A stretch of DNA of 64,000 bases from Halobaculum saliterrae (GTDB lineage Archaea; Halobacteriota; Halobacteria; Halobacteriales; Haloferacaceae): the NCBI RefSeq assembly GCF_009831625.1, contig NZ_WUUS01000004.1, positions 139,743 through 203,742 on the forward strand. Direction: 5' to 3'. The notes under the pieces were generated by a model that had not been told where the DNA came from, did not search any database, and saw only the letters and a list, made by a program, of their open reading frames with translations. Below, piece after piece: positions 17,044 to 20,167 of the stretch. The position numbers were made by a program, and so were the translations under genes. The first letter of the stretch is position 1. Each line of letters starts with the position of its first letter.

Positions 17044-18309
17044 ATGGACATCGACGCACACGCCGAGGAGCTCGCCTCCGCTCTCGGCGAGGACAAAGAG
17101 GAGGTCAAGCGCGACCTGGAGAACCTACTGGAGTACAGCGTCCCCGTCGACGAGGCGAAGCAGTCGGTCCGCCGGAAGTACGGCGGCGCCGGCGGCGGCG
17201 ACGCCTCGCCGTCGGCGGTCGATATCGCCGACGTGAGTCCCGAATCGGGCAACGTCACCGTCACCGCGCGGGTGCTGACCGTCGGGAGGCGGTCGATCCG
17301 GTATCAGGGCGACGACACCGTCATCCGCGAGGGCGAACTCGCCGACGGGACCGGGACGATCAGCTACACCGCGTGGCAGGACTTCGGTTTCGAGCCCGGC
17401 GACACCGTCACGATCGGCAACGCGAACGTCCGCGAGTGGGAGGGCGAACCCGAACTCAACCTCGGGGAGTCCTCGTCGGTCGCGATGGAGGGGGAGACGC
17501 TCGACGTCCCCCACGAGGTCGGCGGCGAGCGCGACCTCGTCGACCTCACGGCCGGCGACCGCGGCCGGACGGTGGAGGCGAAGGTGCTCGAACTCGAACA
17601 GCGGACCATCGACGGCCGCGACGGCGAGACGACGATCCACTCCGGGGTGCTCGGCGACGAGACCGCCCGGCTTCCGTTCACCGACTGGCAGGCTCGCCCG
17701 GAGGTCACCGAGGGCGCCGAACTCCGCATGGAGGACGTGTACGTCCGGGAGTTCCGCGGCGTCCCCTCGGTGAACCTCACCGAGTTCACCGAGACCTCGC
17801 CCGCGAGCGTCGAGGTGAGCGACGCGGCCCCCCGCGTCAGCATCGGCGAGGCGGTCACCTCCGGCGGGATGTACGACGTGGAGGTGCTCGGCAACGTGCT
17901 GGAGGTCCGCGACGGGTCCGGGCTCATCGAGCGCTGTCCCGAGTGCGGCCGGCTCGTCCAGAACGGGCAGTGCCGGAGCCACGGACAGGTCGACCCCGAG
18001 GACGACCTCCGGGTCAAGGCGATCCTCGACGACGGCACCGCGACCGTCACCGCGATCCTCGACCGCGAGCTCACCGAGGACATCTACGGCGGCACCCTCG
18101 ACGACGCGCTGGAGGCCGCCCGCGACGCGATGAGCCGCGAGGTGGTCTCCGACGACATCGCCGAGACGCTCGTCGGACGGGAGTTCCGCGTTCGCGGTCA
18201 CCTCTCGGTCGACGAGTACGGCGCGAACCTCGACGCGACGGAGTTCGCGGCGAACGACGACGACCCGGCCGCGCGTGCGGCCGACCTCCTCGAGGAGGTG
18301 GGCGCGTGA
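17044..18309 (+). CDS. rpa1: replication protein A, large OB-fold single-strand DNA-binding protein
   Basis: 421 residues. A short helical N-terminus (1-50) precedes successive OB folds (about 60-150, 165-265 and 275-400), each introduced by a GRTVEAKVLEL-like strand. A zinc knuckle inside the last has C298, C301, C310 and H313 (CPECG to CRSH). It coats single-stranded DNA in replication and repair. The order RPA, RPA-associated protein, phosphoesterase is the rpa1 operon arrangement described in Haloferax volcanii, so the RPA1 class is assigned by operon and architecture. The next gene follows after a 49-base spacer that folds into a perfect hairpin. Confidence 0.93.
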   Translation: MDIDAHAEELASALGEDKEEVKRDLENLLEYSVPVDEAKQSVRRKYGGAGGGDASPSAVDIADVSPESGNVTVTARVLTVGRRSIRYQGDDTVIREGELADGTGTISYTAWQDFGFEPGDTVTIGNANVREWEGEPELNLGESSSVAMEGETLDVPHEVGGERDLVDLTAGDRGRTVEAKVLELEQRTIDGRDGETTIHSGVLGDETARLPFTDWQARPEVTEGAELRMEDVYVREFRGVPSVNLTEFTETSPASVEVSDAAPRVSIGEAVTSGGMYDVEVLGNVLEVRDGSGLIERCPECGRLVQNGQCRSHGQVDPEDDLRVKAILDDGTATVTAILDRELTEDIYGGTLDDALEAARDAMSREVVSDDIAETLVGREFRVRGHLSVDEYGANLDATEFAANDDDPAARAADLLEEVGA

Positions 18310-18332
18310 GGGACGACGATTCACGTCGAACC

Positions 18333-18361
18333 CACACGGACCACATGGGGTGGTCCGTGTG
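18333..18361 (+). promoter_or_regulatory. perfect 12-bp hairpin over the rpap1 start codon
   Basis: cacacggaccac (18333-18344), loop atggg (18345-18349), gtggtccgtgtg (18350-18361) pair without a mismatch. The GTG start of the next gene is the last three bases of the 3' arm (18359-18361). ATG 18345 in the loop opens a five-codon ORF ending in TGA at 18360-18362, which overlaps that GTG. Confidence 0.8.
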
Positions 18362-20167
18362 AGCGCCGGCGACGGCGGCGGCGACGGGAGCGACGACGCG
18401 GGGCCGGGGAACCGCGAGGTCGCCCACCGGGTGTTCGCCGCGGAGTTCGACGACGCCGACCTCGATCACTCCGAGAGCGACGAGGAACGCGCGCCCAACT
18501 ACGTCGTCACGCCGACCGGGCTTCGCGTCAACCGCCTGTTCGCCGTCGGCGTGCTCACCGAGGTCGAGTCGGTGAACGATCAGACCCTGCGCGGGCGCGT
18601 CGTCGACCCGACGGGCGCGTTCGTCACCTACGCCGGACAGTACCAGCCGGACGAGGCGGCGTTCCTCGACCGCACGACGCCGCCGGCGTTCGTCGCGCTC
18701 ACGGGGAAGGCGCGCACGTTCCAGCCGGAGGACTCCGATCTGGTGTACACCTCCGTCCGTCCGGAGAGTATCGCGACGGTCGACGCCGACACGCGCGACC
18801 GGTGGGTCGTCTCCGCCGCGGAGGCGACGCTCCGCCGGGTCGCGGTGTTCGCGGAGGCGCTCGCGATGGACGAGCGCGGCGATCGGCTCCGCGCCCGGCT
18901 CGAGGACGCCGGCGTCCCGACGGCGCTGGCCGCCGGGATCCCGCTGGCGATCGACCACTACGACACGGGGACGCGGTACTTGGAGGCGGCCCGGACGCTC
19001 GCCGTCGACGCGCTGGAGGTCGTCGCCGACGAGCGCGAGGAGGTCCGCGCGCTCGCGGCCGACCCCGGCGACCGCGGCGACGCCGACCTCGGCCCGCTCC
19101 CCGATGTTCCGTACGACTTCGAGAGCGTGAGCGCGCCGGAACCAACGGACGACGACGCCGAATCGGACGTCGATGGCTCGCCGGACGCCGCCGATCCGAC
19201 CGCCGCGGGAACCGACGCCGCCGCGTCGACGGCGTCGACGGTCGGCGATCCCGACGCTCACGACGCCGACGAGCCGGACGGGGCCGCCGAACCCGCGGAG
19301 GCGGTGGATCCGACCGAGGACGACGTCGCCGTCGCGGAGGCCGACCCCGGCGCGGGTGCGGAACCCGAACCGGTCGAGTCCGCGGACGCGGATCGCTCCG
19401 ACGAGGAGGACGCCGACGCTGGCGCCGGTCCGGACGCGGACGCCAGTCCGAACGCGGGCGCCGAACCCGCGGACGGCGCCGGCGACGACCTCGGGGAGTT
19501 CAACGACCCGGACGACGGTCTCGGGGAGTTCGACGCCGGCGGCGAGTCGGACGCGACCGACGCCGGGGGCGCGCTCGACGAGACGGACGACCTCGGGGAG
19601 TTCGACGCGGGCGAGGGCGACGCCGCGGAGACCGATGTCGACCCCGAGGACTTCGAGGACGCGCTCTCCGAGGAGGAGCGCCGCGAGGTCGAGGAGGAAC
19701 ACGGCGTCGAGTTCTCCACGGGAACCGAGGTCCCCGACGCGGGCGAGTCCGGCATCGAGGCGCCGGAGCCCGACGCCGAGGCCGTTCCCGCGGAGCCCGA
19801 CGAGGGGTCGGATCCGGACGCGACCGCGTCGGACGCCGACGGCGCCGACGGCGACGCCGAGCCCGACGCCACCACCGGAACCGAAGCGGCTGCCACGGAC
19901 GAGCCCGTTTCGGACGGTCCGGACGAGGTCGACGCCGTCGAGGCCGACGGCGACGACGCCGCGGACGCCGACATCGACCTCGAGGACGCCGCGGTCGCGG
20001 TCATGAGCGACCTCGACGACGGCGACGGCGCGGACCGCGAGGCGGTCGTCGCGGCCGCCGTCGAGCGCCACGGGGTCGACCCCGGGGACGTCGAGGACGC
20101 CATCCAGGAGGCGCTGATGAGCGGGAAGTGCTACGAGCCGACCGACGGCACGCTCAAGCCCATCTGA
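18359..20167 (+). CDS. rpap1: RPA-associated protein (RPAP) with long acidic linker
   Basis: 602 residues from GTG 18359 (GTG 18350 is an alternative). An N-terminal OB-fold-like domain (about 12-130: REVAHRVFAAEF, LRVNRLFAVGVLTEV, LRGRVVDPTGAF) and a helical region to about 255 are followed by a 260-residue acidic low-complexity linker and a C-terminal winged-helix-like domain (about 545-602, DREAVVAAAVERHGVDPGDVEDAI). RPAP partners RPA in haloarchaea and is needed with it for DNA repair. The linker holds three copies of LGEF(D/N) in acidic context. The start codon is buried in a hairpin, suggesting translation coupled to rpa1. The stop overlaps the next ATG by one base. Confidence 0.9.
   Translation: MSAGDGGGDGSDDAGPGNREVAHRVFAAEFDDADLDHSESDEERAPNYVVTPTGLRVNRLFAVGVLTEVESVNDQTLRGRVVDPTGAFVTYAGQYQPDEAAFLDRTTPPAFVALTGKARTFQPEDSDLVYTSVRPESIATVDADTRDRWVVSAAEATLRRVAVFAEALAMDERGDRLRARLEDAGVPTALAAGIPLAIDHYDTGTRYLEAARTLAVDALEVVADEREEVRALAADPGDRGDADLGPLPDVPYDFESVSAPEPTDDDAESDVDGSPDAADPTAAGTDAAASTASTVGDPDAHDADEPDGAAEPAEAVDPTEDDVAVAEADPGAGAEPEPVESADADRSDEEDADAGAGPDADASPNAGAEPADGAGDDLGEFNDPDDGLGEFDAGGESDATDAGGALDETDDLGEFDAGEGDAAETDVDPEDFEDALSEEERREVEEEHGVEFSTGTEVPDAGESGIEAPEPDAEAVPAEPDEGSDPDATASDADGADGDAEPDATTGTEAAATDEPVSDGPDEVDAVEADGDDAADADIDLEDAAVAVMSDLDDGDGADREAVVAAAVERHGVDPGDVEDAIQEALMSGKCYEPTDGTLKPI

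Follow-up and report, generated by a model that had tools for sequence, protein, structure and literature searches.

Why should a perfect hairpin cover the start codon of rpap, the gene that directly follows the replication protein A gene rpa in Halobaculum saliterrae? A preliminary description of the region had raised this question and proposed that the structure controls translation from within its own loop or, alternatively, binds a protein. We have examined the junction in a window of 64,000 nucleotides (the whole stretch of DNA that was analyzed), and compared it with the same junction in relatives and with similar inserts across haloarchaeal genomes.

The rpa-rpap junction

The features of the junction, in window coordinates, are the following.

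17044 to 18309, + strand: rpa (single-stranded DNA binding protein, replication protein A; NCBIfam NF005554 equivalog, E 9.6e-195), with its stop TGA at 18307-18309
18294 to 18300, + strand: GGAGGTG, a Shine-Dalgarno-like site at the end of rpa, recognized from the sequence and from relatives, here preceding the relay ORF
18306 to 18362, + strand: relay ORF of 18 codons, MRDDDSRRTHTDHMGWSV, with its GTG start on the rpa stop and its TGA on the rpap start
18306 to 18364, + strand: whole element, matched by covariance model R1 (38.1 bits, E 4e-6; this copy is among the 17 training sequences)
18310 to 18332, + strand: hairpin I from folding, in a short version here (CGACG/CGTCG plus GG/CC), the longer form of which covaries in the family
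18333 to 18361, + strand: hairpin II from folding, a perfect 12-bp stem with the loop ATGGG (18345-18349) and the start codon in its 3' arm
18347 to 18356, + strand: GGGGTGGTCC, Shine-Dalgarno-like, inside hairpin II and complementary to the 3' end of 16S rRNA
18359 to 20167, + strand: rpap (RPA-associated protein), an ORF with its GTG start on the relay ORF stop, neighbour of rpa in 80 relatives

The name rpap is one that we take from synteny and general knowledge, and the protein gave no match to Pfam or NCBIfam models. In its C-terminal half RPAP contains a long acidic low-complexity stretch (window 19140-19900).

The perfect 12-bp hairpin with a five-base loop that had been described as hiding the rpap GTG was confirmed. 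Its arms (18333-18344 and 18350-18361) are 100% complementary around a 5-nt loop, and the 3' arm includes the GTG at 18359-18361. The 81-nt fold around it gave a z of -5.1, and the element folded alone -33.3 kcal/mol (z = -5.5). It is the sole perfect hairpin of at least 12 bp with a loop of 3-8 nt in the window; since about 0.55 such hairpins per 64 kb are expected when so GC-rich a window is described by a first-order Markov model, its size alone is not remarkable. What takes it beyond chance is its position on a start codon, together with the covariation in the family, the covariance-model match and the absence of the insert from most relatives. A second copy of the exact hairpin sequence was not found in the same genome. 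The stem is perfect here because the TC/TC internal mismatch that is usual in the family is replaced by GG/CC.

A five-codon ORF had also been placed in the loop. Its stop does fall on the rpap start, but the frame ending at TGA 18360-18362 is open back to GTG 18306, giving 18 codons, and this GTG overlaps the rpa stop as GTGA. The loop ATG at 18345 opens ATG GGG TGG TCC GTG TGA, which is the tail of the longer ORF. The order is thus rpa, GTGA (18306-18309), the 18-codon ORF, GTGA (18359-18362) and rpap. The GGGGTGGTCC site is predicted to form a duplex of -18.2 kcal/mol with GGAUCACCUCCU. The corresponding 16S end, CTGCGGCTGGATCACCTCC, is present in two other genomes of the genus (G002 and G008) and was not found in the assembly of H. 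saliterrae itself (relatives have two copies), from whose contigs the rRNA may be missing.

In nearly all of the 80 haloarchaeal relatives the rpa stop directly overlaps the rpap start (RTGA), and the rpap start mostly follows a GGAGGTG-like site, located immediately 5' of it in the insert-free relatives. Within the genus the overlap is direct and the site empty in 8 of 11 genomes. H. saliterrae and G008 carry a nearly identical insert of 53 bp between GTGAG copies (18306-18310 and 18359-18363), and G009 a diverged one of equal length. The relay frame and both GTGA overlaps are kept in G008 and also in G009, which in addition keeps GGGGTGGTCC. Relative to the window copy, the stem of G009 (L091) differs by a double change from A-U to G-C, a G-U and a break. 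Part of the original stem is lost there, and folding predicts an alternative hairpin in which the rpap start is paired. In this genome, therefore, the exact stem is less constrained than the frame.

The same comparison bears on the idea that a ribosome initiates at the loop ATG and, five codons later, terminates at the start of rpap. An ATG in frame does exist, but it reads GCG in G009 and lies outside the family consensus, and what is kept is the whole 18-codon frame; besides, a 5-nt loop closed by a very stable stem would be a poor landing site. We consider this reading very improbable.

A contig of Halorubrum aidingense JCM 13560 (L013, around 2960-2990) contains an adapter-like sequence, AGATGTGTATAAGAGACAG, with a repeated rpa-rpap junction, which is probably an assembly artefact.

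A dispersed family at gene overlaps

We searched 391 genomes of the class with the 3' part of the element as a pattern, GGGGTGGTYCGNRTGAGC, and found 62 matches in 55 genomes, against 0 for the reversed pattern. About half of the matches belonged to inserts, 53-209 nt long, that separate genes of an operon and have the double overlap seen at rpa-rpap. This initial pattern demanded RTGAGC, and the statements on the reading frame below rest instead on a search with a covariance model, R1, built from 17 elements chosen for open frames (the window copy included) and encoding no reading frame itself. R1 matched more than 130 places in 97 of the 391 haloarchaeal genomes and 44 of 86 genera (per-genome E <= 1e-3), with 1-4 matches per genome; six weak matches overlapping stronger ones, on the opposite strand or nearby, were excluded from the counts. 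Being part of the training set, the window copy gives with its match (E = 4e-6) no independent proof alone; the other copies do. Outside the order of the window R1 had no match in a phylum sample of 295 genomes. The 4227 covariance models of Rfam gave no family match at eight loci up to E = 1, the only hit being a sub-threshold one to guanidine-II (23 bits versus 32). The consensus right end was not found in the viral contigs searched, and we found no description of this element in the open-licence literature.

Some matches of the short pattern, those at cheB-cheA and beside tRNAs, were set aside as ordinary coding sequence or a different leader. The apparent cheB-cheA overlaps (L143-L149, L154-L155 and L161-L164) carry GGGGTGGTCCGC-RTGAGC as ordinary coding for NAFRGWSA. 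At L104, L125 and L132 (around 1450-1520) GGGGTGGTYCG is located directly 5' of small CxxC-rich protein genes, in tRNA-like surroundings; this leader has a similar strong Shine-Dalgarno site and lacks the relay ORF. Palindromes resembling hairpin I appear outside operons at L228, L248, L255 and L261, beside tRNA-like sequence and partial copies, and may be a related dispersed repeat.

The downstream proteins of the aligned copies were clustered and their representatives scanned with Pfam; some of the pair names that follow combine these results with what we presume from general knowledge. The contexts include sucC-sucD, argC-argB, lysX-argC, nuoB-nuoC, rpl24e-ndk, a pair before leuC, leuC-leuD, moeA-moeA, purS-purQ, livG-livF, rpl7Ae-rps28e, rpoB''-rpoB', ilvB-ilvN, etfB-etfA, rpl2-rps19, a B12-binding mutase subunit with meaB, ABC-2 exporters, the Mnh antiporter and others. 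The argB, nuoC, leuC, ndk, purQ and moeA contexts, like most of the others, were outside the training set of R1. The anatomy of the element, like its covarying stem, is shared by copies in at least 20 gene contexts and is established as that of a family. Many of the host pairs encode subunits of one complex, a category of genes known to be enriched among overlapping gene pairs (Huber 2023, PMC10666635). The matches at gene junctions are in sense orientation and keep the frame. Comparison of empty and filled sucC-sucD sites places the insertion exactly at RTGA, with RTGA at both ends; H. saliterrae lacks the element at sucC-sucD, and G008 has it both there and at rpa-rpap.

The recurrence in so many operons also speaks to the second proposal of the preliminary description, a DNA site bound by RPAP or the RPA complex, and to any operator or regulator acting on rpap transcription. 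A perfect inverted repeat is what such a site might look like. However, the same element sits in more than 20 unrelated operons, its junction copies are sense-oriented with the frame kept, and the exact sequence is unique in its genome, so that the operator idea is left unsupported and we give it hardly any credence, less than any other reading considered here.

Kept frame and covarying hairpins

The right end is RTGA in 95 of 100 loci, and a single small ORF spans the element in 92 of these 95 copies. The spanning ORF overlaps the upstream gene by RTGA in 83 cases and starts 0-9 nt after its stop in the other 9, with a start-to-start spacing of 53-143 nt. When the body is shuffled it stays open in about 54% of cases, and a third of lengths would fit the frame by chance; frame+2, taken as a control, is open in 37 of 92, while frame+1 is uninformative, since the upstream stop always closes it. 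As the copies are related, no single probability is attached to the kept frame, which is nonetheless an established property of the family, seen alike in more than 20 gene contexts.

The frame could be thought to encode a functional micropeptide, and it is open in nearly all copies. However, substitutions are spread about evenly over the three codon positions, without third-position excess, and the peptides differ widely between copies, indicating that the frame is kept and the peptide is not. A working micropeptide is accordingly most improbable, and the relay peptide is probably a by-product. At such gene junctions a small ORF can thus be conserved in its frame and not in its peptide.

Compensatory changes of the stem in relatives were the test by which the hairpin had been proposed to stand or fall, and they are abundant. 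We aligned 61 distinct sequences without reference to structure. Of the cells in the 13 pairs of hairpin II, 91.4% were paired, and 10 pairs had changed on both sides. The double-changed cells numbered 93; the shuffled controls gave 20.1 +/- 7.2 and the slid ones no more than 18. Such changes appear in same-locus copies too. The 5' arm follows the start codon (C-G with GTG, U-A with ATG) and also the nucleotide that follows RTGA (C-G or G-C). Covariation is seen in hairpin I as well, in an alignment fitted to the model. At the leuC side, copies from one genus (L198, L201 and L214) have the inner stem changed on both sides within near-identical flanks. The pairing is thereby established as kept.

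Matched changes can arise without selection by template switching between the arms of a hairpin. As main cause we disfavour it, because 75 of 88 copies retain the unpaired TC/TC step. In the inner stem G-U cells exceed A-C cells by 24 to 4 (structure-free alignment, summed per pair) or 18 to 1 (model-fitted), and this comparison of sequences favours a pairing that acts at the RNA level. Over all hairpin II pairs the figures are 31 to 40. The outer stem, where G-U is not in excess, and the start codon account for this ratio, which does not tell RNA structure from DNA structure.

Of 88 right hairpins, 76 have every base of the start codon paired. The duplex of the buried Shine-Dalgarno site with the 16S end has a predicted mean of -15.2 kcal/mol, versus -6.6 for shuffled sequences. 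Its role is uncertain, since Shine-Dalgarno sites are reported not to be used at 5' UTRs of Haloferax volcanii (PMC3986360).

The identity between copies is 72% for the same locus across genera and 64% within one genome (12 pairs). Grouping by locus prevails over grouping by genome, and we thus see the copies as old residents; of recent within-genome copying these values give no sign. They bear on the strongest competing explanation, in which a dispersed repeat, selfish or neutral and either MIRU-like or derived from a transposon, persists since it happens to preserve coupling, its palindromes serving DNA mobility and not translation. Several observations fit it well. Presence is sporadic per locus, and parsimony requires no fewer than 6 changes at rpa-rpap on a tree of weak resolution (the well-supported branches force only 2). 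Copies of RTGAG flank the element and the empty sites are clean, there are two hairpins as in some mobile elements, and palindromic matches are found in the intergenic sequence of some genomes (L251, L257). MIRUs, moreover, are regarded as mobile and as leaving expression intact through coupling (PMC12548453). Against it are the higher same-locus identity, the compensatory changes between same-locus copies and the inner-stem excess of G-U, the latter two pointing to selection on the RNA in place. On balance we judge this explanation unlikely, although a good deal less so than the loop start, the operator or the micropeptide.

A putative ribosome relay and its known counterparts

We consider it probable that the feature at rpap is a copy of a dispersed translation relay cassette of haloarchaea, inserted at the RTGAG overlap of coupled genes. 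From the arrangement of its parts we infer how it might work. A ribosome finishing rpa would reinitiate at GTG 18306 and translate 18 codons, melting the hairpin on the way; it would end at TGA 18360-18362 and reinitiate at GTG 18359 to make RPAP. With the start and its Shine-Dalgarno site paired in hairpin II, fresh initiation at rpap would not take place, ribosomes from solution being kept off. Thus rpap would stay tied to rpa despite the 53-nt separation, the relay ORF restoring two -4 overlaps and the hairpin barring an independent start.

In Haloferax volcanii a gap of 13-14 nt reduces reinitiation to about half and one of 22 nt abolishes it (Huber 2023, PMC10666635), and a bare insert of 53 nt should for that reason uncouple rpap. 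Overlapping pairs were strictly coupled in 13 of 14 cases tested in that organism (Huber 2019, PMC6728339). Control of the RPA to RPAP stoichiometry is a possible consequence. A wider interpretation, which we put forward only tentatively, would see here an undescribed class of archaeal cis elements that inserted time and again into core operons (those of ribosomal proteins, RNA polymerase, NADH dehydrogenase, succinyl-CoA synthetase and RPA) and was kept since, through its hairpin and relay ORF, it adjusts or enforces the subunit ratio from one mRNA.

A precedent in the same domain is the termination-reinitiation at ATGA overlaps of Haloferax volcanii (Huber 2019, 2023), where the downstream gene is translated by ribosomes coming from the upstream one. 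The stop/start overlaps GTGA at 18306-18309 and 18359-18362 are of this kind, and by analogy the same coupling is proposed here; the difference is that two such overlaps follow each other, the tiny ORF between them being the putative relay. Structures that hide a downstream start and are opened by upstream translation are also known elsewhere (examples cited in PMC6728339). Ours likewise hides the start and would be opened by translation, but it sits in a separate relay ORF and belongs to a repeat common to many operons.

The element is small, with two hairpins and a fixed target-like sequence, and in this general anatomy, the level at which we compare them, it resembles the palindromic mini-elements derived from IS200/IS605, such as the PATEs of Haloquadratum, which have the same three traits. 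The copies of the present element studied at gene junctions are sense-oriented.

A relay of ribosomes through a tiny ORF is, to our knowledge, known so far mainly from the mycobacterial MIRUs, which are the closest known kind. The element described here would be the first MIRU-like relay element in archaea that we know of, where few structured cis elements are known. Nature has here set up an experiment that may show if ribosomes can be carried over 50-140 nt by termination-reinitiation in series, for what reason certain core operons acquire a tiny ORF between subunits, and in what way a coupled operon can take up an insert and remain coupled.

MIRUs have a high copy number per genome, whereas the haloarchaeal element has only 1-4 copies. 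These short mycobacterial repeats insert at start codons and contain an ORF whose coupling to the following gene is at -4 (Supply et al. 1997, as referred to in PMC12548453). Both are short dispersed repeats at gene overlaps in operons, with empty sites in relatives and an ORF that overlaps the next gene at -4 spacing. The present element was found only in haloarchaea, within the phylum sampled, and has a strongly covarying hairpin that hides the Shine-Dalgarno site and the downstream start. By analogy it would work like a MIRU, but in this comparison of anatomy and copy number its few copies and its distinctive start-hiding hairpin set it apart, and we do not class it as one. The likeness extends in a few cases to tandem copies. 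At L252, L254 and L256 (around 960-1200), in an ABC-2 exporter, a Mnh antiporter and one other context, chains of at least two tiny ORFs with successive RTGA overlaps lie between operon genes, and the element appears to be tandemly repeated there.
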